Shown one piece after another: positions 37,439-62,762 of a stretch of DNA of 64,000 bases. The stretch covers positions 1-64,000 of the forward strand of contig CANJJS010000020.1 of NCBI GenBank assembly GCA_947474705.1, written 5' to 3'. The notes under the pieces were generated by a model, which saw only the letters and a program-made list of their open reading frames with translations, had not been told where the DNA came from and made no database searches. The number at the start of each line of letters is the position of its first letter. The stretch's first letter is position 1. The translations under genes and the position numbers were made by a program. The DNA is from Acetobacteraceae bacterium (GTDB lineage Bacteria > Pseudomonadota > Alphaproteobacteria > Acetobacterales > Acetobacteraceae).

Positions 37439-37455
37439 CGATGTGGGTATGTCGC

Positions 37456-39081: not shown

Positions 39082-39113
39082 CGTCTGTCTCCTTCACGCG
39101 CCGGCCCAACGGG

Positions 39114-44505: not shown

Positions 44506-44685
44506 GGCCTGGTGAATGCGCCGCGCGCGAGCGGTGCGGCTGGCCACTTCGCGATGGCCAGGAATAACATCTCCGTTTCAGGTATTTTTGCCGGCATCGC
44601 CCGGCATGATCGAATGATCGGTCTCGGCACAGGATAGCGGGGCGGGTCGCTTGTCCCCGCGGAGGTGGCTTATAACTTCCGCGCC

Positions 44686-44724
44686 GTACCGCTCCCGGTC
44701 GCCCGATCGAGTCGGGCGATGACG
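44686..44724. repeat. REP-like palindromic intergenic repeat
   Basis: The core TCGCCCGA-tcgag-TCGGGCGA (44699-44719) is a perfect eight-base-pair palindrome flanked by GTACCGCTCCCGG on the left and TGACG on the right. The same unit, with TCCCCCGA/TCGGGGGA, recurs at 51854-51899 and inverted at 51681-51723. It lies in the 282-base gap after the CMD gene, in which I see no gene. Confidence 0.75.
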
Positions 44725-47092: not shown

Positions 47093-47692
47093 ATGACCCA
47101 CACCGACCAAACCGAAACCGACCCCTTCGCGTGGTTCGCCCGCTGGATGGCCGAAGCCGAGGCCAGCGAACCCTCCGACCCCAACGCCATGGCGGTCGTC
47201 ACCGTCGGCGCGAACGGCCGCCCGTCGGCCCGCACGATCCTGCTGAAAGGCACCGATCCCCGAGGATTCGTGTTCTATACCAACACCAACAGCCGCAAAG
47301 GCGACGAACTCGCGGCCAACCAGGCCATCTCGCTCCTGTTCCACTGGAAGTCGCTGGGCCGCCAGATCCGGATCGAAGGCAGCGTCGAACCCGTGACCTC
47401 CGCCGAGGCCGACGCCTACTACGCCACCCGCCCCCGTATCTCCCGCCTTGGCGCATGGGCTTCCGACCAATCCCGCCCCTTGTCCGAGCGCGCCGAACTC
47501 GAACGCCGCCTGAAACATTTCGAGGAAAAATACCCCGGCGAAGACATCCCCCGCCCGCCGCACTGGTCCGGCTACCGCGTGCTGCCCGACCGGTTCGAGT
47601 TCTGGCAAAACATGGAATTCCGCCTGCACGACCGGAACATTTTTACGCAGGCACCCGGTGGCGGCTGGACCCGCGGCAAGTTGTTTCCATAA
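47093..47692 (+). CDS. pdxH: pyridoxamine 5'-phosphate oxidase
   Basis: This FMN enzyme (199 residues) makes pyridoxal phosphate. RPSARTILLKG, FVFYTNTNSRKGDELAANQ, SLLFHWKSLGRQIRIEG and RPPHWSGYRVLPDRFEFWQ are the FMN- and substrate-binding segments, and the C-terminus includes RLHDR. The start MTHTDQTETDPF is chosen because the extension upstream is not conserved-looking. The kinase fusion gene begins four bases after its stop. Confidence 0.95.
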   Translation: MTHTDQTETDPFAWFARWMAEAEASEPSDPNAMAVVTVGANGRPSARTILLKGTDPRGFVFYTNTNSRKGDELAANQAISLLFHWKSLGRQIRIEGSVEPVTSAEADAYYATRPRISRLGAWASDQSRPLSERAELERRLKHFEEKYPGEDIPRPPHWSGYRVLPDRFEFWQNMEFRLHDRNIFTQAPGGGWTRGKLFP

Positions 47693-47696
47693 CCGC

Positions 47697-49223
47697 ATGA
47701 ACGCGTCCGCGGACCAGGCGGAAACCGTCGCGTTTCTGACCGCGCTCGCGGGCGCGCTACCGGTGGAAACCCATATTTCCTGTGTGTTTCTCGGCCCGGA
47801 TACGGTCTGGAAACTGAAGAAATCGGTTCGCCTGCCGTTCCTGGATTTTTCCACGATCGAAGCCCGGGAACATTTTTGCCGCCGCGAACTGGAACTGAAC
47901 GCTACCGCCGCGCCCGGTCTTTATGGCGACGTTGTTCCGGTGGTCCGCGCGGCGGATGGCGCGCTGACGCTCGGCGGCGAGGGGGAACCGGTCGACTGGA
48001 TCGTCCGCATGGCGCGCGTGCCCGCCGCGGATTTTCTGGATGTTCGGGCGGCGAAAGCCCCTCTGAACCCAGAGATGTTGGACGCGATCGCCGACGCGGT
48101 CGCCCTCTGGCACCTCTCTCTGCCCCCCGTGGCCTGCGTTCGCCCGGATCTGGCGGCGACCGCCAAGGGCAACGCCACCGCCGCGCGCGCCGCCGGCCTG
48201 AACGTGGAGCCGGTGAACGCCTGGCTCGCCGCGATGCACGCGGACCTCGCGGCGACCGCGGCCTGGCAGGACGCGCGCGCGGCGGCGGGCTTCGTCCGGC
48301 GCTGCCACGGCGATTTGCATTTGGGCAATCTCTGCCTGTGGCGAGGCCGCCCGGTCCTGTTCGACGCCCTGGAATTCGACGAGTCGATGGCGACGATCGA
48401 CCTGGGGTACGACCTCGCTTTCCTGCTGATGGACCTGGAACAACGCCAGAATCGGGCGTCGGCCAATCGGGTGCTGAACCGGTATGTCGCGCGCACCGGG
48501 GATGTTTGTCTGGTGGGCGGATTGCCGATGTTTCTGTCGATGCGGGCCATCATCCGCGCCCATGTGGAGGAACGCGTGGGGCGGCATACCGCGGCGGCGG
48601 CCTATCTGGGCGCCGCGGCCCGCTATCTGACCCGGCGGGTTCCCGTCCAGGCGGCCACGGGCTGCCCGGTCTCTGGGTCCCTTGGCGCGGTCGTTGTCGC
48701 GATCGGCGGCCTGCCGGGCACGGGAAAATCCACGCTGGCCCGTGCTGTTGCGCCCCTGCTCGGCCGCGCGCCCGGCGCGCTGGTGCTGCGCAGCGACGAG
48801 ATCCGCAAGCGCCAGCACGGAGTCCCGCCGGAACAGCGCCTGCCCCCCAGTGCGTATAGATCGGCCAAGAGCGCCGCCGTGTTCGACACGCTCACCCGCG
48901 ATGTGGAGACCGCCGCCGCCATGGGCCAGGCGGTTATCGCCGACGCGACATTTCTCAACCTGGCGCATCGGGACATGGTGGAAGCGGCGGCCGCGCGGGC
49001 CGGGTTGCCTTTCGTTGGGCTGTGGCTGATGGCGCCCAAAGACGAACTGGAACGGCGCGTTGCCGCGCGCACCGGCGACGCCTCCGACGCCACCGTCGAT
49101 GTCCTCCGCGGCGCCGCCAAAGCCGATCCGGGACCCCGCGCCTGGCACGCCGTCGATACTTCGGAGTCTTCCTCCGCCCTGACCCTGGCGAAGACGATTC
49201 TGGCTCCCCATATCGCGATCTGA
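47697..49223 (+). CDS. aminoglycoside-phosphotransferase-like / P-loop kinase two-domain protein
   Basis: This 508-residue protein belongs to the bifunctional APH/AAA group widespread in bacteria. Residues about 1-320 are kinase-like, with the lysine region VWKLKKSVRLPFLDFS, the catalytic loop CHGDLHLGNLCLW (His204) and the metal-binding FDALEFDE. From residue 337 GGLPGTGKST is a Walker A, with RSDEIRKR following, like the shikimate/zeta-toxin-type kinases. Both halves keep their key residues. The substrate is not known. It is four bases from pdxH, so they are probably one transcript. Confidence 0.84.
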   Translation: MNASADQAETVAFLTALAGALPVETHISCVFLGPDTVWKLKKSVRLPFLDFSTIEAREHFCRRELELNATAAPGLYGDVVPVVRAADGALTLGGEGEPVDWIVRMARVPAADFLDVRAAKAPLNPEMLDAIADAVALWHLSLPPVACVRPDLAATAKGNATAARAAGLNVEPVNAWLAAMHADLAATAAWQDARAAAGFVRRCHGDLHLGNLCLWRGRPVLFDALEFDESMATIDLGYDLAFLLMDLEQRQNRASANRVLNRYVARTGDVCLVGGLPMFLSMRAIIRAHVEERVGRHTAAAAYLGAAARYLTRRVPVQAATGCPVSGSLGAVVVAIGGLPGTGKSTLARAVAPLLGRAPGALVLRSDEIRKRQHGVPPEQRLPPSAYRSAKSAAVFDTLTRDVETAAAMGQAVIADATFLNLAHRDMVEAAAARAGLPFVGLWLMAPKDELERRVAARTGDASDATVDVLRGAAKADPGPRAWHAVDTSESSSALTLAKTILAPHIAI

Positions 49224-49224
49224 A

Positions 49225-49249
49225 GCAAGCGCATTGCAGGCTTGCATTT
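49225..49249 (+). terminator. weak hairpin after the kinase gene
   Basis: GCAAGC (49225-49230) pairs with GCTTGC (49240-49245) around a nine-base loop and is followed by ATTTC. The stem is short, and the T-tract weak. It could end the pdxH-kinase transcript. Confidence 0.3.
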
Positions 49250-49307
49250 CTCGCGGAACAACGCAGAGTTGAATGCCGCACAGGGACGACCAGGAAAGGA
49301 CCCGACC

Positions 49308-50174
49308 ATGGCCATCCGTAAAATTCTGCTGCCATTGACCGGAACCGCCGCCGGGGAAGCGGCGCTCACCACGGCGCTGACCATCGCCAATATCTGGAAA
49401 GCGCATGTCACCGCGCTGCATGTCCGCGTGGACAGCCGCGACGTCGCGCCGCTGGCGGGCGAAGGCTTGTCTGGTGCCATGATCGAGGAAATGATGACCG
49501 CGACGGAAAAAGAAAGCAGCGACCGCGCGCACGCCGTGCGGTCGATGTTTGAGCGTTTCGTCGCGCGCCAGAACGTCGTGGTCCGTGAAGCCCATGCCGG
49601 CCTCGAGCACGCCACCGCCAGCTTCGCCGCCGTCACCGGCCGCGAGGAAGATATCGTCGCGCAGCAGGCGCGTCTCGCCGATCTGACGGTCGTGCCGCAT
49701 CCGGACTCGGGCGAAGACGTTTCTTCCTCGGACGCGCTGCACGCGGTGTTGTTCGACTCGGGACGCCCCGTGCTGATCTCGCCGCAAAAGGCGGTCGAAA
49801 CGATCGGTAAACGGGTTTGCCTGGCCTGGAACGGCACGGCGGAATCCGCGGAATCGGCGCTGGCGGCGATCCCCTGGATGAAGCAGGCCGAGGCGGTGCG
49901 GATTTTGTCGGCGGAGGGCTACCAGCGCCGCGGACCCGCCGCGCCGGAACTGGCCGCTTATCTCGCGTTGCACGACATTAACGCGGATATCGTGATGTTC
50001 CCGTCGATCCGGAATTCCGTCGGGGCGGGCCTGCTGGAGGCGGCGCGTCAGTTCGGATGCGATCTGCTGTCGATGGGCGCCTATTCGCATTCTCGTTTGC
50101 GCCAGTTGATTCTGGGTGGCGTGACACGACATGTGCTGGAGAGCGCAACCATCCCGGTGATGATGACACGATGA
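49308..50174 (+). CDS. universal stress protein (UspA family, tandem)
   Basis: This 288-residue protein has the start MAIRKILLPLTG and a second Usp-like half ending LGGVTRHVLESATIPVMMTR, where the G-x-x-x-x-x-x-L-x-x-a-x-x-P-V pattern is the Usp end motif. ADLTVVPHPDS in the middle closes the first half. The ATP-binding G-2x-G-9x-G-S/T motif is only partly kept, so ATP binding is unclear. AGGAAAGGA before the ATG is a strong ribosome site. Its stop overlaps the start of the pirin gene (ATGA), so they are coupled. Confidence 0.86.
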   Translation: MAIRKILLPLTGTAAGEAALTTALTIANIWKAHVTALHVRVDSRDVAPLAGEGLSGAMIEEMMTATEKESSDRAHAVRSMFERFVARQNVVVREAHAGLEHATASFAAVTGREEDIVAQQARLADLTVVPHPDSGEDVSSSDALHAVLFDSGRPVLISPQKAVETIGKRVCLAWNGTAESAESALAAIPWMKQAEAVRILSAEGYQRRGPAAPELAAYLALHDINADIVMFPSIRNSVGAGLLEAARQFGCDLLSMGAYSHSRLRQLILGGVTRHVLESATIPVMMTR

Positions 50175-50872
50175 TCGAAGTCCGTCCGTTCGGCCGTCTC
50201 GGCCGATTCAAGAATGAGTGGCTGAACGCCCGCCACCATTTCAATTTCGGCAATTATCGCGACCCCGCGCGGACGGGATTCGGCAAGCTGATGGTGTGGA
50301 ATGACGATGAGATCGCGCCGGGGACGGGGTTCGATCCGCATCCGCATCGCGACATGGAAATCGTTACCTATGTCCGCGAAGGCGCCATCACCCATCAGGA
50401 CAGTCTGGGCAACGAGGGCCGCACGGTGGCCGGCGATGTGCAGGTGATGCACGCGGGCACCGGGATCACGCACGCGGAATATAACAAGGAAACGCGAGCG
50501 ACTCTGTTGTTTCAGATCTGGATCCGGCCGGACATATATGGTGTCGATCCCGGATGGGAAGCGCGGACCTTCCCGAAGGAAGGCAGCGGTCTTGCCGTGT
50601 TCGCCAGCGGGCGAGCCCAGGACGCGGGGAGCGGCGCGTTGGCGTTGCATGCGGACGCGGCGGTGTTCGCGGGGACGTTGAAGGCGGGTGAGACGATCCG
50701 TTTCCCGATCGGAGCGGGGCGGCGGTTGTATTTGGTGCCGGTGAACGGGACCGTGACGGTGAACGGAATTGTCGCGAAACAACGCGATGGTGTGGCGATC
50801 GGGGACGAGACGGAAGTTTCCATCGCCGCGGCCCATCCGGTGGAACTGGTCGCGGTGGACGTCGCCGCTTAA
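50171..50872 (+). CDS. pirin family protein (bicupin; YhaK type)
   Basis: This 233-residue cupin protein has intact pirin metal ligands in the N-terminal cupin: His57 and His59 in FDPHPHRDMEIVTYV, and His101 and Glu103 in ITHAEYN. Related proteins include quercetinase-like YhhW and YhaK. The second cupin is degenerate as usual. It begins MIEVRPFGRLGRF, overlapping the Usp stop by four bases. Its 3' end overlaps by four bases the end of the convergent hydrogenase-like small subunit gene, an unusually tight tail-to-tail arrangement. Confidence 0.88.
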   Translation: MIEVRPFGRLGRFKNEWLNARHHFNFGNYRDPARTGFGKLMVWNDDEIAPGTGFDPHPHRDMEIVTYVREGAITHQDSLGNEGRTVAGDVQVMHAGTGITHAEYNKETRATLLFQIWIRPDIYGVDPGWEARTFPKEGSGLAVFASGRAQDAGSGALALHADAAVFAGTLKAGETIRFPIGAGRRLYLVPVNGTVTVNGIVAKQRDGVAIGDETEVSIAAAHPVELVAVDVAA

Positions 50873-51372
50873 TCCGCGAACAGCGACAGCAATCCCGCGA
50901 GGAGCTTCGTGGGTGAGGGCGGGCAGCCGGGGATGACCAGATCCACCGGCACCACCGACGACACGCCTCCCACGATCGCGGAACTGCCGGCGAAGATTCC
51001 GCCGTCGGCGCCGCAATCGCCCACGGCGACCACCCATTTCGGGTCGGGCGTGGCGCGCCATGTTCGCTCCAGCGCCTGGCGCATGTTCAGGGTCACGGGG
51101 CCCGTGACCAGCAGCACATCGGCATGGCGTGGCGAGGCGACGAAATGGATGCCGAACCGCTCGATGTCGTAAAACGCGTTGTTCAGCGCGTGGATTTCCA
51201 GTTCGCACCCGTTGCAGGATCCCGCGTCGACCTGGCGAATGGCGAGACTGTGTCCCAGCCGCTTTTGGGCGGCCGCGTTCAGGGTGGTGGCGAGCGCGGC
51301 GACCGCCGGATCGGGTGGCGGGCGGTTTTCGGTCAGGGGGCGGCGGAGGCCTTCGCGGAGGAATTTCAGCAT
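50869..51372 (-). CDS. hydrogenase-4-like iron-sulfur subunit (HyfI/NuoB-like)
   Basis: This 167-residue homologue of the small subunit of group 4 hydrogenases and of NuoB keeps all four cluster ligands: Cys53 and Cys56 in GSCNGCELE, Cys120 in VGDCGADGG, and Cys150 in PGCPPSP. So a proximal (N2-type) 4Fe-4S cluster should be present. It begins MLKFLREGLRRPLTENRP and starts 568 bases after the large-subunit homologue, a gap filled with palindromic repeats. The gap may need its own promoter or read-through. Its partner, the large subunit, lacks the NiFe cysteines. Confidence 0.88.
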   Translation of the reverse strand: MLKFLREGLRRPLTENRPPPDPAVAALATTLNAAAQKRLGHSLAIRQVDAGSCNGCELEIHALNNAFYDIERFGIHFVASPRHADVLLVTGPVTLNMRQALERTWRATPDPKWVVAVGDCGADGGIFAGSSAIVGGVSSVVPVDLVIPGCPPSPTKLLAGLLSLFAD

Positions 51373-51680
51373 TTTGGGCGATTCTCGCGAGGGGGCTTTG
51401 GGGAATATTCCGGCGAGGGGGCGGGTTCCCGGCCGTGCGCCGGGGCTGGCGAACGGGAGCGGCATGGGAACCGTTTGACACGGAGACCACGGAGAATGGC
51501 GGAGGACCTCGGAGGTTCTTTGGCGGTGGGCGGCGTGCCGGATGTTTCGCCGCGGCATCGGCCGATGGCGGCGGTTCTCATCTTGGGCGTCGTCGTTTCC
51601 CAATCGTTATCCTTGGGCTCGAGCCTGTGGCGGTCGTGTATCAGCGGAATGAAAATTCGAAGTCTGGTACAACCCTTCCT

Positions 51681-51723
51681 CGTCATCCCCCGGCTCGATC
51701 GGAGGGGCGGTCGCGGCACGAAC
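51681..51723. repeat. REP-like element, copy A of an inverted pair
   Basis: CGTCATCCCCCGGCTCGATC and GGAGGGGCGGTCGCGGCACG followed by AAC form a palindromic unit. It is the reverse complement, with a few changes, of the unit at 51854-51899. The similarity continues about 40 bases further inward in both arms. The two sit in the 568-base gap between the large and small hydrogenase-like subunit genes. Confidence 0.75.
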
Positions 51724-51853
51724 CGGCATTTCTGGCGCGTCCGGTGGTTCGATTGCGTTGTGCCATGATGCGGCGGGTAGCGTATCTCCGATCGTTCCGC
51801 GGTTGTACGAGCGCCGTCGGACGCGATCGGGGGACCCGAAGTGCCGGAAAAGC

Positions 51854-51899
51854 GAATTCGTGCCGCTCCCGGTCCCCCGATCGAGTCGGGGGATGACGG
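51854..51899. repeat. REP-like element, copy B of an inverted pair
   Basis: The perfect palindrome TCCCCCGA-tcgag-TCGGGGGA (51873-51893) is framed by GAATTCGTGCCGCTCCCGG and TGACGG. It pairs with copy A at 51681-51723 and matches the single element at 44686-44724. The rest of the 51373-51940 gap holds no plausible gene on either strand. Confidence 0.8.
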
Positions 51900-51940
51900 A
51901 AAAGCGCGGCCGGAAGCCGAAATGGTCATCGAACCTGCCA

Positions 51941-53398
51941 TCACAGGTCGTGACCGGAATAGGAACAGTTGAAACTTTTATTGCACAGCGGAAAATCCGC
52001 CACGATGTTGCCCTCGATGACCGCCTCCAGCAGCGGCCATTGAAACCAGGAGGCGTCGCGGATGTGGCAGCGCTCGACCTGCCCGGCATTCAGGCGGAGC
52101 CAGATCAGAACATCGCCGCGGAAGGCTTCGGTGAGCGACATGCCCTCGCCCGACCCACGGGGGATCGGCATTTGAATCGGGCCGTCCGGCAGGTCGCGGA
52201 GAATGCGTTCGATCATGGTCAGGCTTTGGCCGATTTCGCGCGCCCTGATCCAAACGCGGGCGTTGACATCGCCCTTGGTGAGCACGGGGACTTCGAAATC
52301 CAGGGCATCGTAAGGCGCGTAACCCGGGTATTTCCTGGCATCGAACCCTCGGCCGGAGGCGCGGCCGATATGGCCGCCCGCGCCGAATTGTTTCGCCAGC
52401 GCCGGTTTCAGGATACCCGTGGTGACAGTGCGGTCCTGTAATGAGGCGGTGCGGTCGTACAGCGCGGTCAAATCGGAAAATTTCGTCCGGATATCGGTGG
52501 CCAGAGCCGCGATGGCGGTGCGGTTGTCCGCGTCGAGATCCACCGCGACCCCACCGGGAATAATCCGGTCCATCATCGACCGATGCCCGAAAGCCGCGTC
52601 CGCCGCGCGCAGCACGCGCTCGCGCATAACCGCGCAGTGGGACAGGATGACGGTGAACGACGCGTCGTTGCATATGGCGCCGAAATCGCCGAGATGGTTG
52701 GCGATCCGTTCCATTTCCGCCATCAGCGCGCGCAGCCAGATCGCGCGCGGCGGCGGGCTCACGGCCAAAGCGGACTCGACCGCGCGCGCGAAGCCGATCC
52801 CATAGGCGACGGTGCTGTCGCCGGAGACGCGGCACGCCAGGCGCGCGGCGCGGTCCAGCGGCGCGTTCATGAACAACTCGTCGACGCCTTTGTGGACATA
52901 GCCGAGACGTTGTTCCAGACGAACAACGGTCTCGCCGTCGCAGGTGAAACGAAAATGGCCGGGTTCGATGATCCCGGCATGGACGGGGCCCACGGGAATC
53001 TGGTGCAGGCCCTCGCCGGTCACGGGCAGGAAGGCGTAATCCGTGCCGTCGCGGTGATCCAGCCATCCCCGCGGATCGGGCAGACCGATCGGTTCGTAGC
53101 CGAACAGATCGCGGATGGCGCGTTCAAGGCGGATCGCGGGCGGGTGCGCCGAGCCGATGGCGGGGTAGGTGCCGTCTGGGCAGGGCAACGTCAGGACCCC
53201 GATTGCCTGAGGTTCGTCTTCCAGCAGCGCCATGTGGATCTGGTGGGCGTCGCCCCAGACGCTGAGCAGGGTCATCTCGCCCGCCGCCAGATGCGCGATG
53301 GCCTGACGCCAGACGGCTTCGTCCACGGCCGCGCGCGGGAAAGGGCGGTGCGACAAAGCGGGCCGGCCGGCCGCCAGCAGGGGGGAAAGCACGCTCAT
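51941..53398 (-). CDS. hydrogenase-4-like large subunit lacking the NiFe site (HyfG/NuoCD-like)
   Basis: This 485-residue protein has a NuoC-like N-terminal part (about 1-115) and a NuoD/hydrogenase-large-subunit part. The position of the first NiFe motif, R-x-C-G-x-C in hydrogenases, reads R190-V-S-G-D-S here, with serine at both cysteine sites. The C-terminal motif D-P-C-x-x-C is replaced by PLCNKSFNCSYSGHDL (Cys472 and Cys478, five apart). So it cannot hold the NiFe centre and falls in the energy-converting-hydrogenase-related (Ehr) class. RDLFGYEPIGLPDPRGW, ERLGYVHKG-like and HLGDFGAIC are conserved. Its start overlaps the stop of the HyfF-like gene (ATGA). Confidence 0.85.
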   Translation of the reverse strand: MSVLSPLLAAGRPALSHRPFPRAAVDEAVWRQAIAHLAAGEMTLLSVWGDAHQIHMALLEDEPQAIGVLTLPCPDGTYPAIGSAHPPAIRLERAIRDLFGYEPIGLPDPRGWLDHRDGTDYAFLPVTGEGLHQIPVGPVHAGIIEPGHFRFTCDGETVVRLEQRLGYVHKGVDELFMNAPLDRAARLACRVSGDSTVAYGIGFARAVESALAVSPPPRAIWLRALMAEMERIANHLGDFGAICNDASFTVILSHCAVMRERVLRAADAAFGHRSMMDRIIPGGVAVDLDADNRTAIAALATDIRTKFSDLTALYDRTASLQDRTVTTGILKPALAKQFGAGGHIGRASGRGFDARKYPGYAPYDALDFEVPVLTKGDVNARVWIRAREIGQSLTMIERILRDLPDGPIQMPIPRGSGEGMSLTEAFRGDVLIWLRLNAGQVERCHIRDASWFQWPLLEAVIEGNIVADFPLCNKSFNCSYSGHDL

Positions 53399-54834
53399 CC
53401 GAGGATCGCCGCGACATGCTGGAACCAGGCGATCAGCGGCGGCGGCAGCCAGATCCCGGCGGCCAGGACCAGTGCGAGATGCGCGATCGCCGGGAGGTAA
53501 GAGGCGCGGACCGGTGGGATCGGGCCCTTCACCTCGCCAAACGCGATGTCGGTCAGGCGGAGCAGCAGGCCGCCAAAGGCGAGCAAAACGCCGAGCACGA
53601 AGACGATCGCCAGCCAGGGCGCGCGCGCGAAGGTCGTGGTGGCCAGCAGGAACTCGCTGGCGAAGACGCCGAAGGGCGGCAGTCCGGCGATGGCGGCGAC
53701 TCCCGCGACCAGCATCCAGCCCAGAAAAGGATGCGATGTGGTAAGGCCGCCCATATCGGCCATGCGCTGCGTGCCTTTGACCTGCGCGATATGCCCGACA
53801 ATGAAGAAAATCGCGGATTTCGTCAGACTATGCATCGACATTTGCAAAAGCCCGGCGAGGTTGTCGAGCGGCCCGCCCATGCCGAAGGCGAAGACGATGA
53901 TTCCCATATGCTCGATGGAGGAATAGGCGAACAGGCGTTTGATGTCGCGGCGGCGGTACAGCATGAACGCCGCGAAAATCAGCGAAACCAGGCCCATCGC
54001 GATCAGCAAAGGTCCAGGCGAGATCGCCCCTGGGCTTGCCGCCATCAGAATCTTGAACCGCAGTAGCGCGTAAAGCGCGACATTCAGCAGAAGACCGGAA
54101 AGGACGGCGGAGATCGGCGTCGGACCCTCCGCGTGCGCGTCCGGCAGCCAGGCGTGCAGCGGCGCGAGGCCAACCTTCGTGCCGTAGCCCAGAAGCAAAA
54201 AGACAAAGGCGATGTTGAGAAGGGAGGGGTCGAGCGTGGGCGCGTGCGAGACCAGCGTGGTCCAGACCATCGCGTCCAGACCTTCGCCCACGACGGGGCG
54301 GGCGGCCAAATACACGAGAATGGTGCCGAACAGCGCCAGCGCGATGCCGACGGAGCCCAGGATGAAATATTTCCAGGCGGCTTCGAGGGCTTCCGGCGTC
54401 CGGTAGAGCCCGACCATCATGACGGTTGTGAGGGTGGCGAGTTCCACCGCGACCCACATCAGGCCGATATTGTTGGCTGCCAGCGCGAGGTTCATCCCGA
54501 ACATCATCAGTTGGAACATCGCGTGATAAAAGCGCAGATGCCGGGAGGTCACGCGTCCCGTCTCGACCTCGTGCGCGATGTAGCTGGCGCTGTAGATACT
54601 GGTGGTGAAGGCGACGAAGGTATTCAGCAAAATGAACACGATGTTGAAGTCGTCTACCATCAGGAAGGTGTGGGGTGGTGGCCGGGACAGTGGCAGCGTG
54701 GCGGCGCAGACCAGCGCCGCCAGGGAGGCCGCGATGTTGAGGGCGGCGGAGAGGCGTTGGTTCGGGATCGTCGCGAGCAGCGCGGCGGCGCCCAGCGGGA
54801 TCAGCAAAATGCCCAGCAGCGGGTCGAGGGTCAT
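53395..54834 (-). CDS. hydrogenase-4-like subunit F (NuoN/antiporter-type membrane subunit)
   Basis: This proton-conducting antiporter-like subunit (479 residues) has about 13-14 membrane helices. The functional charges are kept: Glu in WVAVELATLTT (helix 5), Lys in GYGTKVGLAPLHAWLPDAHAEGPTP, Lys in RRRDIKRLFAYSSIEHMG and HSLTKSAIFF. The start is the ATG giving MTLDPLLGILLIP, overlapping HyfE by four bases (ATGA). A longer open frame exists upstream but is out of the reading of the next gene and not credible. Proton or sodium pumping is inferred from family. Confidence 0.9.
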   Translation of the reverse strand: MTLDPLLGILLIPLGAAALLATIPNQRLSAALNIAASLAALVCAATLPLSRPPPHTFLMVDDFNIVFILLNTFVAFTTSIYSASYIAHEVETGRVTSRHLRFYHAMFQLMMFGMNLALAANNIGLMWVAVELATLTTVMMVGLYRTPEALEAAWKYFILGSVGIALALFGTILVYLAARPVVGEGLDAMVWTTLVSHAPTLDPSLLNIAFVFLLLGYGTKVGLAPLHAWLPDAHAEGPTPISAVLSGLLLNVALYALLRFKILMAASPGAISPGPLLIAMGLVSLIFAAFMLYRRRDIKRLFAYSSIEHMGIIVFAFGMGGPLDNLAGLLQMSMHSLTKSAIFFIVGHIAQVKGTQRMADMGGLTTSHPFLGWMLVAGVAAIAGLPPFGVFASEFLLATTTFARAPWLAIVFVLGVLLAFGGLLLRLTDIAFGEVKGPIPPVRASYLPAIAHLALVLAAGIWLPPPLIAWFQHVAAILG

Positions 54835-55493
54835 TGGCGGCCGCCGCGGAACATGTGGAGGGTGCCGACATCGACGCTGTCGAAGCGTTCGCGGATGCGG
54901 AACAGGAAGACTCCGATGACGATGAAGGCGATCAGGACGGAGAAGGCGACGGAGATTTCGACGACCAGCGGCATGCCTCGGGCGCCGGTGGCGGCGAGGT
55001 TGATGCCGTTTTCCAGCGACATGAAGCCCACGACCTGGCTGACCGCGTTGCGGCGTGTGACCATCAGCAGGAGCCCGATCAGCACGACGGACAGCGCGAG
55101 GGCGATGTCTTCTCTCACGACGGGATCCGCCTTCGCGGTCAGCGGCAGCATGAACTCCAGCGACAGCGCGACCAGCGCCATCGCGGCGAGCATGGTGAGG
55201 CCGATGCCGACGACGTTCTCGATCTCCCGATGAATGCCCATGCGGACGACCATGCGGCGGAGCACCCAGGGGACGAGGATCGCCTTGAACAGCAGCGCGA
55301 TCGCGGCGGTGATGTAGAGATGTGGCGCGTCCTGGGTATGCGCCTGCCAGGCGACGGAGAGCGACAGCGCGAAGGCGTGCGCGGCGAGGACGTTCAGCAG
55401 CGGCGGCAGCCGGACCTGGTAGAGCATCAGGAAGCTGAGCAAGACCAGGAAACCCGCGAGCATGTGGGAGATATCGAAGGAAATGCCGGTCAT
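54831..55493 (-). CDS. hydrogenase-4-like subunit E (HyfE)
   Basis: This 220-residue membrane protein combines NuoJ/NuoK-like features. MLAGFLVLLSFLMLYQVRLPPLLNVLAAHAFAL and TRRNAVSQVVGFMSLENGINLAATG are HyfE signatures, the second containing the NuoK-type glutamate in a membrane helix. Six helices are likely. The start ATG shares one base with the stop of the HyfC-like gene (TGATG). It ends RERFDSVDVGTLHMFRGGRQ, the usual HyfE C-terminus. Confidence 0.88.
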   Translation of the reverse strand: MTGISFDISHMLAGFLVLLSFLMLYQVRLPPLLNVLAAHAFALSLSVAWQAHTQDAPHLYITAAIALLFKAILVPWVLRRMVVRMGIHREIENVVGIGLTMLAAMALVALSLEFMLPLTAKADPVVREDIALALSVVLIGLLLMVTRRNAVSQVVGFMSLENGINLAATGARGMPLVVEISVAFSVLIAFIVIGVFLFRIRERFDSVDVGTLHMFRGGRQ

Positions 55494-56458
55494 CACATTC
55501 CTCGCGATACGAACAGCAGCAGGACGCCCAGCAGACCCAGCATGAAGGCCGCTCCGACAAAGTTCGGGACACGAAACACCCGCATTTTCGCGATGCACAT
55601 TTCGAAGGCGCCCAACAGCACGGCGCCCGCCGCGAGTTTCGCCAGATAGAGGCCCAGCCCCATCAGGTATGCGACCGGCCCGCCGCCCATGCGGGCGATC
55701 CCAAATGGGAAGAACAGGCAGCCGATTAGCGAGATATACAGCAGAAGTTTCAGGTGCGACGCGAGGTCGATCATCGCGAGGTGGCGGCCCGAATATTCCA
55801 GGACCATCGCCTCGTGCACCATGGTCAGTTCCAGGTGTGTCGCGGGGTTATCGACGGGGATGCGGGCGTTTTCCGCCAGTGTCACGATGGCCAGCGCGAT
55901 CAGTGCCAGGGCCAGGGACACGCGCAGGCCCGCGGCGCCGGAGGCCATGTAATCGGCGATCGTCGAGAGTTGCGTGGATCCCGCGATCAGCGCGACGCAG
56001 AAGACGATCATGATGGTCGCGGGTTCGGCGAGGGTGGCGAACATCGATTCGCGGGAGGACCCAATGCCCCCGAAGCTGGTGCCGATATCCATGCCGGCCA
56101 ATGTCTGGAAAAAGCGTGCGGCCCCAAGCAGGCCGGAGATCGCCAGCAGGTCGCCGGTCCAGCCGAACATCAGTCCGGTGGCGAAGGTGGGCACCAGGGC
56201 GGCGGCAACCCAGGTGAAGGAGAAGATCAAATAGGGCGCGACCTGGAACAGCCAGGAGGCATTTTCGGCCAGCACGGATTCCTTGTTCAGGAGGCGGCGC
56301 AGGTCGCGATAGGGTTGGAGTAACGGCGGCCCTTGGCGGCGTTGGATGCGGGCTTTCGTTTTACGCACCAGCCCGGTCAGCAGCGGCGCGAGCCCCAGCA
56401 CCAGCAGCATTTGCGCGAACTGGATCGACAAGGCCCAGAGCGAGGCGGGCTGGTTCAT
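55493..56458 (-). CDS. hydrogenase-4-like subunit C (NuoH-like)
   Basis: This 321-residue membrane subunit connects the hydrophilic arm to the membrane arm. KTKARIQRRQGPPLLQPYRDLRRLLNKE is the NuoH/HyfC hallmark (ARIQxRxGP). ENARIPVDNPATHLELTMVHEAMVLEYSG holds the conserved Glu and His residues. FPFGIARMGGG and YLAKLAAGAVLLGAFEMCIAKMR follow. Start 56458 overlaps the HyfB-like stop by ATGA; an ATG six bases upstream (56464) is possible. About eight helices are expected. Confidence 0.9.
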   Translation of the reverse strand: MNQPASLWALSIQFAQMLLVLGLAPLLTGLVRKTKARIQRRQGPPLLQPYRDLRRLLNKESVLAENASWLFQVAPYLIFSFTWVAAALVPTFATGLMFGWTGDLLAISGLLGAARFFQTLAGMDIGTSFGGIGSSRESMFATLAEPATIMIVFCVALIAGSTQLSTIADYMASGAAGLRVSLALALIALAIVTLAENARIPVDNPATHLELTMVHEAMVLEYSGRHLAMIDLASHLKLLLYISLIGCLFFPFGIARMGGGPVAYLMGLGLYLAKLAAGAVLLGAFEMCIAKMRVFRVPNFVGAAFMLGLLGVLLLFVSRGM

Positions 56459-58464
56459 TGCCATAGGGCGAGCGCCAGGAGCAGCGCGACGAGCGAGAGG
56501 AACACGAAGGTCAGATAGCGCCGGATCGTCAGGAACTGGATCGTGTTCAACCGGGTGGAGACAATGCCCACATAAGTGGCGATGGGTGTGTAGATCCCAT
56601 CCCATGCCAGATCGCGGCTGTAACGGACGATCCCGCCCGCGCGCATTTCGCCGGGTGCCGGCATATCGACGGTTTCGCGGGTCCGGAACACCAGCGCGCC
56701 GAAGACGCGGCGGATCGGCTGGGAAAAACTTTCGGCGGTGTATTGGGTTTCCGGTCTTGGATCGGGGAAGCCGCAATCCCAGGCGGGCGCGCGCCGGGTG
56801 GCGCTCGATCCGAACCGATGCGCCAGCGCGACGACGATCATGGTGGAGGAGGCGAGGAACAGGAACACCAGCAGCCCGTTATAGGAGCTGCGGCTGGCGG
56901 AAATTGGGATCAGGCTCAGCCATTTGTCGCCGAGTTGCGGGGGCAGGCGCTCGCCCAGCAGGCTGGAGACGACGGGGGCCAGGCCGTCCACGGCGATCCC
57001 GGGGACGAGGCCGAGGACGAGGCACAGCGCGGCGAACAGCGCCATCGCGGCGGTCGACCAGGCGTCGGTTTCATGTGCCGTCGCGGCGGGCTCGCTTCTT
57101 GGACGGCCGAGAAAGGCGATGCCGTGCATGCGGACGAAGCAGGCGGCGGCCAGGGCGGCGGTCAGGGCCAGCAGGGCGCCGTCCACGGGGATCATGATTT
57201 TCAGCCCCCATTGCGGCAGGTCGGGGCGCAGCAGGATCGCCTGAAATGTCATCCATTCCGAAACGAAGCCGTTCAGCGGCGGCAGCGCGGAAATGGCGGC
57301 GCACCCCGTCAGCATCGCCGCGTGGGTCCAGGGCATGCGGTGGATCAGCCCGCCCAGACGGCCGATGTCGCGTGTTCCCGCGCCGTGCAACACCGCGCCC
57401 GCTCCAAAGAAAAGCAGACTTTTGAAAACGGTGTGGTTCAGCGCGTGAAACAGCGCCGCCGTCAGCGCCAGCACCGCGCCGGGGGTGAAGCCATTGCTCT
57501 GGAACGCCATCGCCAGCCCGAGGCCGATGAACACGATGCCGATGTTTTCGATGGTCGAGTAGGCGAGCAGCCGTTTCAGGTCGCGTTCCATCAGCGCGTG
57601 TAGTGCGCCGAGCGCGGCGGTGGCGCCGCCAAGGGCGAGGACAATGGCCGCTTCCCACCACACCGGCGGTCCCGCGAGATCGAAGACGATGCGGATAAAG
57701 CCGTAGACGGCGACCTTGGTCATGACGCCGCTCATTAGCGCGGAGACATGGCTGGGGGCGGCGGGGTGGGCGAGAGGGAGCCAGACATGCAGTGGCACGA
57801 GTCCGGCTTTGGCGCCCGCGCCGATGGTGGCGAGGACGAAGACCAGCGCGGCGGTGCCGCCGGTGGGGCGGGCCGCGCGGATGGCGCCGAAGGTGAAGCC
57901 GCCTTCCGTGCCCGCCAGGAGTCCGAAGGCCAGAAGGAGCGTCAGGCCGCTGAAGACCGCCATGACCAGATAGACGAAGGCGGCGTGGATGTTTCCGTCC
58001 TCGCGATGGCGGGCGAGGACGAGAGCCCAGGAGGCGAGGGACATGAGCTCCCAGGCGAAGAGGAAGACGAAGGCGTCGGCGGCGAGGACCGCCAGGGTCA
58101 TGGCGGCGATGAAAAGCGGGACGAAGGGGACGACGCGGGCGGGCTCGGCTTCGTGTTGGCCGTAGCCGATGGCGTAAAGGCAGGCGCCGGCGCCGCCAAG
58201 GCCGATCGGGATGAGGAACGCCGCCGCCAAGGGATCGAGGCTGAGAGTCACGCCGGTAACGGGCAGGCCGAGCGGCAGCTTCAGGCCGGAGACCGGTGCC
58301 GCGAGGGAGGTGGCGCCGCACCAGAGCAGCGCGAGGCAAACCAGTGTGGCGGCGGCGTAGATGGCGCCATGGCGGCGTGGGAGGCACACACTCAGGGCCG
58401 ACAATGCGAGCAACGCGGCGATACACCAGGCGGTTGGCTCAATCATCTCGGGCTGATGTCCCAT
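56455..58464 (-). CDS. hydrogenase-4-like subunit B (NuoL-type membrane subunit)
   Basis: This 669-residue antiporter-like subunit has the conserved Glu in FLFAWELMSLASW, AGAKAGLVPLHVWLPLAHPAAPSHVSALMSGVMTKVAVYG with its Lys residues, RDLKRLLAYSTIENIG, and HTVFKSLLFFGAG. The C-terminus has CGFPDPRPETQYTAESFSQPIRRVFG, which is found in HyfB and MrpA-like members. The start is uncertain: ATG 58464 follows GGAGGAC closely, and ATG 58446 (MIEPTAW) is also possible. It is the first gene of the operon B-C-E-F-G-I. No HyfA/HyfH ferredoxin, HyfD, hyp maturation or formate dehydrogenase gene is near. Confidence 0.88.
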   Translation of the reverse strand: MGHQPEMIEPTAWCIAALLALSALSVCLPRRHGAIYAAATLVCLALLWCGATSLAAPVSGLKLPLGLPVTGVTLSLDPLAAAFLIPIGLGGAGACLYAIGYGQHEAEPARVVPFVPLFIAAMTLAVLAADAFVFLFAWELMSLASWALVLARHREDGNIHAAFVYLVMAVFSGLTLLLAFGLLAGTEGGFTFGAIRAARPTGGTAALVFVLATIGAGAKAGLVPLHVWLPLAHPAAPSHVSALMSGVMTKVAVYGFIRIVFDLAGPPVWWEAAIVLALGGATAALGALHALMERDLKRLLAYSTIENIGIVFIGLGLAMAFQSNGFTPGAVLALTAALFHALNHTVFKSLLFFGAGAVLHGAGTRDIGRLGGLIHRMPWTHAAMLTGCAAISALPPLNGFVSEWMTFQAILLRPDLPQWGLKIMIPVDGALLALTAALAAACFVRMHGIAFLGRPRSEPAATAHETDAWSTAAMALFAALCLVLGLVPGIAVDGLAPVVSSLLGERLPPQLGDKWLSLIPISASRSSYNGLLVFLFLASSTMIVVALAHRFGSSATRRAPAWDCGFPDPRPETQYTAESFSQPIRRVFGALVFRTRETVDMPAPGEMRAGGIVRYSRDLAWDGIYTPIATYVGIVSTRLNTIQFLTIRRYLTFVFLSLVALLLALALWQ

Positions 58465-60138: not shown

Positions 60139-60924
60139 TCAGGCGGCGGCTTTGACGAATCTGTTGCGCAGCACGCCAAGGCCGGTCAGTTCGACCTCGA
60201 CCACGTCGCCGTGGACCAGGTCGGGCGAGGTGCCGTCGGTGCCCATCCAGATCACGTCGCCGGGATATAAAGTCATGTATTTCGTCATGGCGGCGATATA
60301 ATGCGCGATGCCGAAGATCATGTCGTTGGTTTTGAAGCGCAGGTCTTCCTTGTCGTTGACGCGGATCACGGTGTCCATCGCGTCCAGATCGACGTCGGTC
60401 TCGATCCAGGGGCCCATCGGTTTGAACGTGTCGGTGTTTTTGCCGCGCCAGAAGGTGCGGTCGCCGCGCTGCCAGGTGCGTTCGCTGACATCGTTGCCGA
60501 TCGTGTAACCGAAGACGCAGGAGAAGGCGTTTTCCTCGGTCAGGTTTTTGGCCTGTTTGCCGATGATGACGACCAGTTCGCCTTCGTAGTTCATTTTGGG
60601 CGGCGCATGGGCGGGGATGACGACGTCGTCTTCATGCGCGCACAGCGCGTTGATGGCGCGGTAGCCGATATCGGCTTTTTGCGGGAACACCGGTTCGACA
60701 CCGCGTTTTTCCGCCATTTCGCGGATGTGGGCGGCGTAGTTGATGCCGGCGCAATAGAAGGTGCGGGGGATGACCGGCACTTCCAGCTTCACGGCGGCCA
60801 GGCTGTGGGTTTTGCCCGTGGGGGTGGCGTCGGTCCAGGGCGCGCCGGCGACCTCGGTGATGGTGTCCCCGGAAAGGGAGCCGTAGGCGGTGTTCCCGTT
60901 GGCGGTGAATCTGACCCATTTCAT
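60139..60924 (-). CDS. fumarylacetoacetate-hydrolase family protein
   Basis: This 261-residue enzyme belongs to the FAH/YcgM superfamily, which hydrolyses or decarboxylates acylpyruvates and related dicarbonyl acids. Metal ligands are Glu114 and Glu116 (MNYEGELVVIIG) and Asp145 (GNDVSERTWQ). The segments CAGINYAAHIREM, KADIGYRAINAL and GDVIWMGTDGTSPDLVHGDVVEVE are usual. The start MKWVRFT overlaps the stop of a TauD-type gene by four bases (ATGA), so it shares a transcript with two dioxygenases, probably for one degradative pathway. Confidence 0.87.
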   Translation of the reverse strand: MKWVRFTANGNTAYGSLSGDTITEVAGAPWTDATPTGKTHSLAAVKLEVPVIPRTFYCAGINYAAHIREMAEKRGVEPVFPQKADIGYRAINALCAHEDDVVIPAHAPPKMNYEGELVVIIGKQAKNLTEENAFSCVFGYTIGNDVSERTWQRGDRTFWRGKNTDTFKPMGPWIETDVDLDAMDTVIRVNDKEDLRFKTNDMIFGIAHYIAAMTKYMTLYPGDVIWMGTDGTSPDLVHGDVVEVELTGLGVLRNRFVKAAA

Positions 60925-61844
60925 GCGTGTATTTCCTCCTGTGGCGCCGCGCGGGCGATTTGTATGTATGCCGGATCGAAGACCTTGGTGGCCATGACCT
61001 GACAGCGCCGGATCAGGCGGATTTCGTCGGGACTGTAGTCGGCGATCGCGCGGTGGATGGTGCCGAGATTGTCCCAGATGAGAAGGTCTTTCTCGGTCCA
61101 GTGGTGGGTGTAGCGGAACCGGTCCTGAAGTTGGAACTCGAACAGGAAGTCGAGCATTTTGTCGCTTTCGGCGCGGTCCATGCCTTCGATGTGATCGGTG
61201 AAGCCGGGGTTGCAATACAGGACCTTGCGGCCGGTGATTGGGTGCGTGAGGAAGACCGGATGCGGCACGGGCGGGCGCATCCGGCGTTGTTCGTCCGTCA
61301 GGGGCGGGCGGGGGGAATTGCGGTTGTTCCGCATGTGATCCCAGAACTTCGTGAAGTCGTGGATGCCGGTCTTGCCGTCGAGGCGGGCTTTGATGTCGTC
61401 CGGCAGTGCCTCGAAAACCATGTGCATGTTGGAGAATTCGGTGCCGCCCAGGGGCTTGCCGTCGCGTGTGGGGATGCGGACGCCGTAAAGGACGTTCACG
61501 AAGCCCGCGACGGTGCGATAGGTCATGTCGGTGTGCCAGTCCTGCCCCGCGTCGGGACTGCCGATATACAGGCCGTTTTCCTTAACATTAGATAAAATAC
61601 CGACTTCCGGAAACTCTCGTTTCGCGTCCGTTTTGCCGATGGGATTGCCCTGGATTTCCCCGAACAGCGCCGAGAACCGGCTGACATCGCCGGGTCCCAG
61701 GTCCTGGTCTGGAAAGCGCAGCACGCCGTGGTCGCCAAGCGCGCGGAGGATGACGCCGAGGTCGCTGTCCTTCATGGGCTTCGACAGATCGACGCCATGG
61801 ATGGTGGCGCCCAGCACGGCGCCGGTGGGTTCGACTGAGATCAT
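60921..61844 (-). CDS. TauD/TfdA-family dioxygenase (tandem copy 1)
   Basis: This 307-residue Fe(II)/2-oxoglutarate dioxygenase shows His104-x-Asp106 (GQDWHTDMTYR) and the distal His264 (LGTIHRAIADY), with arginines near 277-280 (EIRLIRR). It is clearly a paralogue of the next gene upstream: both share PTGA-LGATIHG, VLYGV/I-IP-RDGK-LGGTEFSNMH and a C-terminal RRCQVMATKVF/QVF. Their spacing is 12 bases. It overlaps the downstream FAH-type gene by four bases. The substrate is unknown. Confidence 0.87.
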   Translation of the reverse strand: MISVEPTGAVLGATIHGVDLSKPMKDSDLGVILRALGDHGVLRFPDQDLGPGDVSRFSALFGEIQGNPIGKTDAKREFPEVGILSNVKENGLYIGSPDAGQDWHTDMTYRTVAGFVNVLYGVRIPTRDGKPLGGTEFSNMHMVFEALPDDIKARLDGKTGIHDFTKFWDHMRNNRNSPRPPLTDEQRRMRPPVPHPVFLTHPITGRKVLYCNPGFTDHIEGMDRAESDKMLDFLFEFQLQDRFRYTHHWTEKDLLIWDNLGTIHRAIADYSPDEIRLIRRCQVMATKVFDPAYIQIARAAPQEEIHA

Positions 61845-61856
61845 GTTGGCTCTCCT

Positions 61857-62762
61857 TCAGGCCGCGCGGGCCAGTTCGGCGAAGCGGGGCCCGAACACCT
61901 GTGTCGCCATCACCTGGCAGCGCCGCATCAGGCGAATTTCGTCGGGCCGGTAATCGGCGATCGCCTGGTGAATCGTTCCGATATGGTCCCAGACCAGCAG
62001 ATCGTTTTCCGTCCAGCCGTGGGTGTAGCGGAACCTGGTTTCGAGCTGATGATCGTAGAAGAATTGCAACATCCGGCCGCTCTCCGCCTCGGGCAGTTCA
62101 TTGATGCGGATCGTGTATCCGGGGTTGCAGTAAAGAACCTTTTTGCCGGTGATCGGATGGGTCATGAACAGCGGATGCACGACCGGCGGGCGGCGGCGGC
62201 GCTGTTCTTCGGTCATCGGCGGGCGGCCGCTGTTCTTGTGCTCCCGCATATGGTTCCAGAATTTTTCGAATGTGTGGGTCACGGTGGCGTTGGCGAGCCG
62301 GGTTTTGATGTCTTCCGGCAGGGCTTCGTACGCGGCGTGCATGTTCGAAAATTCGGTGCCGCCAAGCGCTTTGCCGTCGCGGCGAGGGATTTTGATGCCA
62401 TAGAGCACGTTCGCGAAGCCGATCGTTTCGCGGTAGGACATGTCGGTGTGCCAGTCCTGTCCGGCGTCGGCGGCGCCGATGTATTTCCCGTTTTCCTTGA
62501 TATTCGACAGAATGCCGACCATCGGGATTTCCTTGCCGTCGGGGCCCAGCGGTCCGGACGAAGGTCCCTGAATGTCGCCGAACAACTGGGAAAAGCGCCT
62601 TATGTCGTTCTCCTCCAGATGCTGATCCGGAAAGCGCACCACGCCATATTTCCCAAGCGCGGCGAGGATCTGGCCGAACGCCTGGTCCGGGACCGGCCGC
62701 CGCGCGTCCAGGCCATGAATCGTGGCGCCAAGAATGGCGCCGGTGGGTTCGATCGTGAGCAT
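61857..62762 (-). CDS. TauD/TfdA-family dioxygenase (tandem copy 2)
   Basis: This 301-residue paralogue of the preceding dioxygenase has iron ligands His105 and Asp107 (GQDWHTDMSYR), and distal His in IGTIHQAIADYRPD. It has an extra segment around residues 66-80 (GPSSGPLGPDGKEIP) where copy 1 has a different loop. Both halves of the pair keep complete active sites, so both are probably functional, perhaps with different substrates or as partners. The gene leads the operon of TauD, TauD and FAH-type genes. Confidence 0.86.
   Translation of the reverse strand: MLTIEPTGAILGATIHGLDARRPVPDQAFGQILAALGKYGVVRFPDQHLEENDIRRFSQLFGDIQGPSSGPLGPDGKEIPMVGILSNIKENGKYIGAADAGQDWHTDMSYRETIGFANVLYGIKIPRRDGKALGGTEFSNMHAAYEALPEDIKTRLANATVTHTFEKFWNHMREHKNSGRPPMTEEQRRRRPPVVHPLFMTHPITGKKVLYCNPGYTIRINELPEAESGRMLQFFYDHQLETRFRYTHGWTENDLLVWDHIGTIHQAIADYRPDEIRLMRRCQVMATQVFGPRFAELARAA

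Follow-up and report, generated by a model that had tools for sequence, protein, structure and literature searches.

We analysed a 64,000-nucleotide (nt) stretch of DNA from an Acetobacteraceae bacterium (contig CANJJS010000020.1 of assembly GCA_947474705.1; hereafter the window), and in particular a six-gene operon on its minus strand, running from 58464 down to 50869, which a preliminary description made from the sequence alone had read as an ion-pumping, complex I-like redox complex without a [NiFe] site, of the kind called Ehr. Judged by its gene order, its lack of hyfA, hyfD and hyfH and three conserved cysteines, the operon is orthologous to the hyqBCEFGI genes of Azorhizobium caulinodans, which are already named and for which knock-outs and an H2-related phenotype have been published. 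The operon is real and conserved, and its family is known and doubtfully named; what is new is its distribution and its presence in a reduced genome, not the operon itself. On the alignments reported below, its large subunit HyqG has no [NiFe] site; the operon contains no NuoI-type ferredoxin subunit, and no conserved partner dehydrogenase gene lies beside it. We propose, with a probability of about one half, that Hyq is a reversible proton-pumping ferredoxin(flavodoxin):quinone oxidoreductase.

Nickel ligands and a rebuilt pocket in the large subunit

We aligned 102 hyq-type HyqG proteins (that of the window, 99 from related loci and two more) with HycE, HyfG and NuoCD of E. coli; the diverged L051 is included, L087 is excluded from the protein counts as lying on the same contig as L034, and L036/L088 and L052/L137, each of which seems to be one contig taken twice, are kept in the counts of 102 and 99. 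All four Ni ligands are lost, their columns reading S192, S195, S479 and G482 in the window. Position 192 is Ser in 100 of the 102 proteins and Cys in two, position 195 is Ser in 98 and Ala in four, position 479 is Ser in 100 and Ala in two, and position 482 is Gly throughout. The motif RVSGDS, noticed in the preliminary description in place of the RxCGxC of hydrogenases, is indeed present at residues 190-195, and because the whole set of 102 proteins lacks these cysteines, save for one Cys at position 192 in two members, the loss does not result from sequence error. Its second motif has to be corrected, however: the C-x5-C said to stand where hydrogenases have C-x2-C consists of C472 and C478, which border the former Ni site, whereas the Ni-ligand columns are S479 and G482, and it is therefore no substitute for CxxC.

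The Ni ligands are absent in 102 relatives and yet a different pocket is strongly conserved, and for this reason the HyqG pocket appears to be an active site maintained by selection rather than the remains of a decayed hydrogenase. I144, D194, N244, D245, N473, N477 and Y480 are invariant in all 102 proteins, C243, C472 and C478 are conserved in 99, 101 and 98, respectively, and the C-terminus is nearly identical across the set. C478 is missing in L051 and three others, and both C472 and C478 are absent from the related group B described below (15 rows) and from L066-L068. HyqG ends at the point where the E. coli hydrogenase precursors (HycE, HyfG) continue for about 30 residues; an Ech-type protein with all Ni ligands is also tail-less, so the missing tail decides nothing. 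The best solved relative by sequence is HycE (7z0s_E), matched at E 3e-52, so that a chance match is no concern. A structure model of HyqG, with a mean predicted local distance difference test score (pLDDT) of 82, gave equivalent fold matches to HycE (Z 37.9) and to complex I chains (Z 35.5-37.1), which add little beyond the sequence.

Cluster and ion-pathway residues

The preliminary description had the four cluster cysteines of the NuoB-like subunit and the ion-pathway glutamates and lysines of the membrane subunits in place, and both are invariant among the aligned sequences: C53, C56, C120 and C150 of HyqI, which would hold its [4Fe-4S] cluster, in 88/88; E139, K219, K348 and E403 of the HyfB-like subunit in 86/86; E131, K220, K339 and E394 of the HyfF-like subunit in 97/97; and E147, E212, E218 and E223 of the HyfC-like subunit in 90/90. 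By this measure, the operon has an intact N2-type cluster subunit and intact ion-pathway residues.

Family membership

In a tree of 39 large subunits, the window's HyqG belongs to a 34-row clade devoid of Ni motifs, which stands beside and not inside the HycE/HyfG pair (support 99/97). The clade comprises 24 rows labelled hyq, seven of group B (from the same genus as the window) and three odd rows. The hyq label is not monophyletic, since L051, from the same family, groups with group B (100/99), and L066, L067 and L068 have long branches and an uncertain placement. With both grounds on which the Ehr reading might have fallen removed, namely sequence error and a position inside the true group 4 hydrogenases, that reading is supported.

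Several further large subunits came to light in this comparison. L049, the HyqG of the same-genus genome G025, pairs with that of Afipia (L094) at 100/100, a sign of horizontal transfer. Group B (L054-L065) is a second Ni-less Ehr-type operon in the same genus, with HyfG about 38% and HyfI about 60% identical; its middle gene (L058, 8024-9859, 611 amino acids (aa)) has no Pfam match, and no group B operon was found in the window's genome. L066 (9986-11521) and L067 (3060-4613) hold large subunits of yet another, third kind that also lack the Ni cysteines; their operons comprise all six subunit types, with HyfB last. L071 (247-1326) encodes a group 4 large subunit that has kept its two CxxC motifs (RVCGIC, DPCISC), and its host G014 (91% complete) gave no HypD match.

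hyq often occurs without hypD and nifD

No maturation, ferredoxin or formate dehydrogenase gene had been noticed before in the window, and this stands: HypD was not found in the window's whole genome (99% complete; hypD was the only hyp gene searched, and the control search was positive in E. coli and three more of 14), and E. coli hycB, hycF, fdx and fdhF had no tblastn match within the window. Relatives were taken as the best 80 of 582 loci in a scan, and the genomes of 50, together with 22 G genomes (the only ones of known completeness), gave 72 hyq genomes that were searched for HypD and NifD. HypD was found in 31 and not in the other 41; among the hyq genomes of known good quality it was absent from 14/20. 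NifD was above the cut-off in 26 and not in 46, two of which hold fragments. Both were present in 22 genomes, NifD only in four, HypD only in nine (two with NifD fragments) and neither in 37, which include the genome of the window. Neither hypD nor nifD turned up in the free-living Caldovatus sediminis (L096) and Mesorhizobium qingshengii (L106), and Rhizobium johnstonii 3841 (L120) has nifD and gave no HypD match.

We also made an even draw of 231 Alphaproteobacteria at least 90% complete, counting hyq at E 1e-100 or better and NifD at E 1e-120 or better. This draw contained hyq in 21 genomes, HypD in 15 and NifD in seven, hyq being three times as frequent as nifD, and 16 of the 21 hyq genomes had neither hypD nor nifD. 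hyq needs neither gene. The 2010 paper describes hyq as generally absent from non-diazotrophs (PMC2930871); this does not hold, because 37/72 hyq genomes lack both hypD and nifD and 46/72 lack nifD above the cut-off. hyqG also occurs on 62 plasmid records, two of them from Rhodococcus, and the names it bears among the 40 plasmid records listed include NADH-quinone oxidoreductase subunit C, nickel-dependent hydrogenase large subunit and HypE.

A reduced genome that retains hyq and has lost complex I

One genome of the even draw, G232 (0.9 Mb, 33% G+C, rated 100% complete, 50 contigs; loci L170, L177, L190, L191, L195, L197 and L206), suggests a role for Hyq. HyqG is its sole Complex1_49kDa match, whereas all 19 other hyq-bearing draw genomes searched also have a real NuoD, and HyqC, split across two contig ends, is its sole NADHdh match. 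Apart from the contig break its hyq genes are open, with the pocket motif RISGDS and the C-terminus CNKSFNCSYSGVDL. Complex I survives as a relic: a stretch of about 1.4 kb contains short broken pieces of nuoB, nuoC and nuoD together with a faint match to nuoN (E 0.03).

In the 789 kb of G232 that were read, an ATP synthase was seen by motif. By similarity, GlpABC, GlpK, GlpF and fumarate reductase are present (FrdB and GlpC above NCBIfam cut-offs), as are a four-gene FixA-FixB-FixC-FixX-like (EtfABCX/FixABCX-like) cluster and a small YfhL-type 2[4Fe-4S] ferredoxin; a second EtfAB pair lies beside fumarate reductase. E. coli queries on these 789 kb gave no match to NDH-2, Rnf, cydAB, cyoABCE, citrate synthase, sucABCD, aceEF or YdbK; the cyo queries were positive in the window, and the others had no such control. 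Simple motif searches for aa3 and cbb3 oxidases, [FeFe] enzymes and NifH returned nothing, a weak result with part of the genome unread and the motifs without a control. Judging from gene content, electrons of NADH in G232 would have no visible path to quinone other than the bifurcating enzyme itself and the ferredoxin with Hyq, and ferredoxin-to-quinone transfer by Hyq would be its coupling site.

A proposed function and its rivals

We propose that a soluble low-potential carrier, either a 2[4Fe-4S] ferredoxin or a flavodoxin, docks directly on HyqI, whose single cluster would relay electrons between the carrier and a quinone near the rebuilt HyqG pocket, and that the potential drop would drive proton translocation through HyqC, HyqE, HyqF and HyqB. 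In the forward direction, reduced ferredoxin would reduce quinone when low-potential reductant is in excess; in reverse, quinol and the proton-motive force would reduce ferredoxin when quinone is over-reduced. We infer the donor, quinone, direction and stoichiometry in this scheme. FixABCX/EtfABCX, transferring electrons from NADH to ferredoxin and quinone, would together with Hyq do the job of complex I, and the EtfABCX of Thermotoga is reported to couple NADH to ferredoxin and menaquinone (PMC10734219). More broadly, Hyq may be a widespread six-subunit nickel-free pump, mis-named a hydrogenase and able with EtfABCX/FixABCX to replace complex I, which in diazotrophs would act as a two-way valve between nitrogenase-ferredoxin and quinone with indirect effects on H2; this wider picture we put forward tentatively, as possible rather than probable.

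Several observations weigh against the ferredoxin:quinone proposal, some of them given here and others below with the rivals that they favour. The quinone-ligating His of complex I NuoD lies in HyqG column 144, where all 102 HyqG proteins have Ile, and NuoCD and the host's own NuoD have His; on the alignment, quinone binding at this place has no known ligand behind it. The Tyr partner of that His is Phe in 99/102 HyqG, but it is Phe in the host NuoD too and so does not discriminate. Modelling, which had been suggested earlier as a way of finding the cofactor or quinone pocket at residues 190-195, gave a confident model of the RVSGDS part, but no substrate or cofactor can be placed, because the other two of three pocket parts have a pLDDT below 50 (112-126, 128-170, 463-485). 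The ferredoxin link rests on one draft genome, G232, of which 789 kb of about 900 kb were read, mostly with E. coli queries, and its FixC, FixX and ferredoxin matches are below NCBIfam cut-offs. A strain of R. palustris is reported to require FixABCX (PMC9973337).

The published view is that Hyq is an H2-recycling "endo-hydrogenase" tied to N2 fixation (PMC2650096, PMC2930871, PMC3357923; 2009-2012); the matches listed for hyq names in the literature contain no other work on the operon. A true H2:quinone oxidoreductase that dispenses with the canonical [NiFe] site, its rebuilt pocket perhaps using a different metal or a different chemistry, has A. caulinodans genetics and gas measurements behind it. 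There, hyq is reported to be NifA-controlled and its loss to slow growth on N2 (PMC2650096), an effect that loss of a ferredoxin-quinone valve could also have. The H2 data are harder to accommodate. Double hup hyq mutants are reported to lose nodule H2 recycling, strains with the whole hup/hyp operon deleted are said to retain it in full, and Rhodocista centenaria, with hyq and without hup/hyp, is said to recycle H2, the data not being presented (PMC2930871); a hupSL mutant is described as having a high H2 output under microaerobic conditions, about 80% of it hyq-dependent, and a nifK hupSL strain as still having a high output (PMC3357923). The ferredoxin mechanism explains these results only indirectly and is not fully reconciled with them: an effect through the ferredoxin pool would need another H2-producing enzyme, and an uncharacterised nifA-dependent source is mentioned for about 20% of the H2 (PMC3357923). 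Moreover, hyq is over-represented in the even draw among genomes with hypD (5/21 hyq genomes versus 10/210 without hyq; Fisher p 0.006) and with nifD (3/21 versus 4/210; p 0.018), as a function in H2 metabolism predicts and as a shared microaerobic life could also produce. We nevertheless regard an enzyme acting on H2 as unlikely, since all four Ni ligands are absent, HypD is missing from 41/72 hyq genomes, and the 46/72 without nifD above the cut-off imply that most carriers would have no nitrogenase H2 to recycle. The authors themselves, in their 2012 Discussion, describe HyqG of eight genera as lacking both CxxC motifs and its Ni,Fe site as uncertain, if not unlikely (PMC3357923).

Less probable again is a pump linked to quinone that receives its electrons from an acyl-CoA-oxidation flavoprotein docked on HyqI, either an acyl-CoA dehydrogenase or an ETF. 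In 13 loci of the same genus as the window hyqI is detached, and in 12 of them an acyl-CoA dehydrogenase gene (identified with Pfam in two of the 12) lies directly upstream on the same strand, with gaps of -1 to 67 nt and once 371 nt; this would favour such a donor over ferredoxin, as would the second EtfAB pair of G232. The detachment, however, could be one ancestral event, so that the 12 loci might amount to a single observation. No acyl-CoA dehydrogenase was matched in G232, and no such family recurs among the neighbours at five or more of 99 hyq loci. Among the 13 genomes with detached hyqI, two (G020 and G022) showed hyqG not at all or only as a piece at a contig end.

We consider it improbable that Hyq is a thiol/disulfide or sulfane-sulfur oxidoreductase using C472 and C478, near-invariant and adjoining the old Ni site as these are, because C478 is lost in L051 and three others, group B and L066-L068 do without both, and no sulfur gene was recognised among the neighbours at five or more of 99 loci. 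A degenerate, non-functional hydrogenase-4 remnant, which the loss of every Ni ligand and of hypD might suggest, is hardly credible in view of six open genes, the near-identical C-terminus, the invariant cluster and ion-pathway residues and the retention of hyq in G232 after the loss of complex I.

Operon layout and neighbouring genes

The gene order B-C-E-F-G-I given in the preliminary description is confirmed by reading-frame positions and family profiles (Table 1), and its coupling by stop/start overlaps stands from B to G (B/C 10 nt, C/E 1 nt, E/F 4 nt, F/G 4 nt) but not between G and I, which are separated by 568 nt. Pfam assigns the six proteins to Proton_antipo_M (twice), NADHdh, Oxidored_q2 (weakly), Complex1_49kDa and Oxidored_q6; the large subunit is above no NCBIfam cut-off.

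Table 1. The hyq operon and its parts, with positions in the window
Feature	Position	Strand	Basis
hyqB, HyfB-like antiporter subunit (NuoL/M-like), 669 aa	56455..58464	-	NF005086 hydrogenase 4 subunit B, 820 bits vs cut-off 667
hyqC, HyfC-like NuoH-type subunit, 323 aa	55493..56464	-	PF00146 E 9e-40; alternative start possible at 56458
hyqE, HyfE-like NuoJ/K-type subunit, 220 aa	54831..55493	-	NF008556 hydrogenase 4 membrane subunit E 1e-23, below its cut-off
hyqF, HyfF-like antiporter subunit, 479 aa	53395..54834	-	NF005043 hydrogenase 4 subunit F, 834 bits vs cut-off 533
hyqG, HyfG-like large subunit (NuoC-NuoD fusion type), 485 aa, without Ni ligands	51941..53398	-	alignment, Pfam, tree, fold match
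RVSGDS, HyqG residues 190-195, replacing RxCGxC	52814..52831	-	102-protein alignment
HyqG C-terminal CNKSFNCSYSGHDL, residues 472-485; Ni-ligand columns S479, G482	51944..51985	-	102-protein alignment and alignment to HycE
568-nt hyqG-hyqI gap; 78-nt inverted repeat, arms 51681-51758 and 51821-51898, 76% complementary	51373..51940	none	
hyqI, HyfI-like NuoB-type [4Fe-4S] subunit, 167 aa	50869..51372	-	PF01058 E 3e-34

The complete order recurs in 79/100 related loci, the remaining 21 being cut by contig ends or having no adjoining I. G and I are both present in 88 related loci; 74 of these have a gap of 30 nt or less between them, five one of 31-100 nt and nine one of more than 100 nt; it is 400 nt in the nearest relative, which is counted twice among the last, and 2187 nt in one locus. 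The gap of the window consists of repeat-like DNA with reading frames of the VIPRLDRG type, a 40-nt piece of which is repeated at 44685-44724.

The small helix-turn-helix gene hyqR lies directly upstream in 54/99 hyq loci and, in a separate count, within 300 nt in 52/87; it is absent from the window and, with 35/87 loci lacking it within 300 nt upstream, was not treated as defining. Besides hyqR, no family is immediately beside the operon in more than 5/99 loci, ABC transporter parts and others recurring further out, and this lack of a fixed neighbour fits a general diffusible carrier. Genes for FixA, FixC, FixX and the G232-type ferredoxin had no match in the window or in the 101 loci searched.

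In the window, genes for a phosphotransferase-AAA kinase, a universal stress protein (Usp) and a pirin (47658-50872) converge on the operon, the pirin open reading frame (ORF), ending at 50872, overlapping the hyqI stop (50869) by 4 nt. A DosR-like hypoxia module is known from mycobacteria. We rejected such a dormancy/stress module here, the three-gene set recurring only at the closest relative (L034/L087, one contig); the kinase and Usp genes also adjoin hyqI in G004 (L085), and a Usp-like gene alone is found at L131 and L066. The window has no perfect FNR-type box, and two one-mismatch matches far from the operon are not above chance (20/100 shuffles reach two). NifA/sigma-54 control of the A. 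caulinodans kind gained no support: in 87 upstream stretches of at most 400 nt, a sigma-54 pattern occurred in none and TGT-N10-ACA in five, neither pattern having a positive control.

Elsewhere in the window, a terminal oxidase cluster lies at 36614-39851, with matches to cyoA, cyoB and cyoE of E. coli, and 60921-62762 encodes two adjoining similar proteins that by eye resemble TauD-type dioxygenases. The window's genome also gave eight matches in a CCG-domain search and, on contig C101, a weak HyfI-like match (E 4e-4); a glutamate-cysteine ligase ORF is its neighbour (loci L086, L172).

Significance and comparison with known systems

Published work ties Hyq to H2 and nitrogen fixation, and most of the carriers searched have neither hypD nor nitrogenase. 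Should Hyq indeed couple electron transfer between ferredoxin and quinone to proton pumping, it would show a complex I-type pump with this donor to be built from six subunits only, and it could explain low-potential electron balance in aerobic diazotrophs. The old puzzle of an enzyme that lacks a Ni site and yet gives H2 phenotypes would become testable with one purified complex.

Compared with respiratory complex I, the window's operon lacks the NADH module and NuoI (nuoE, nuoF, nuoG and nuoI had no match within the window), and the host has a separate NuoD on contig C44. An 11-subunit complex I-like enzyme of the Desulfitobacterium type reportedly lacks the NADH module as well; both are without NuoEFG, and Hyq, with six genes, is additionally without NuoI. 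Hydrogenases-4 and -3 of E. coli (hyf, hyc) include the closest solved relative, HycE, and the window's HyfB- and HyfF-like proteins are above the NCBIfam cut-offs for hydrogenase 4 subunits; in contrast, the operon has no hyfA, hyfD, hyfH or hyfJ and no Ni ligands, and its host has no hypD. Ehr complexes share group 4-like subunits without Ni-binding motifs; the published examples, compared by description, come from other phyla and some stand beside a formate dehydrogenase, a partner that the window lacks (PMC6349859, PMC10284858). The closest match is hyqRBCEFGI of A. caulinodans, for which we relied on the published description and on orthologues from species named there rather than on its own sequence. 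The window's operon differs from it in having no hyqR, in the position of hyqI after the 568-nt gap and in a host without hypD and nifD; the two share the same six genes in the same order, the absence of HyfA and HyfD and of CxxC pairs in HyqG, the four cysteines of HyqI and, by spacing, three cysteines of HyqG (258, 491 and 497 in A. caulinodans; C243, C472 and C478 in the window).

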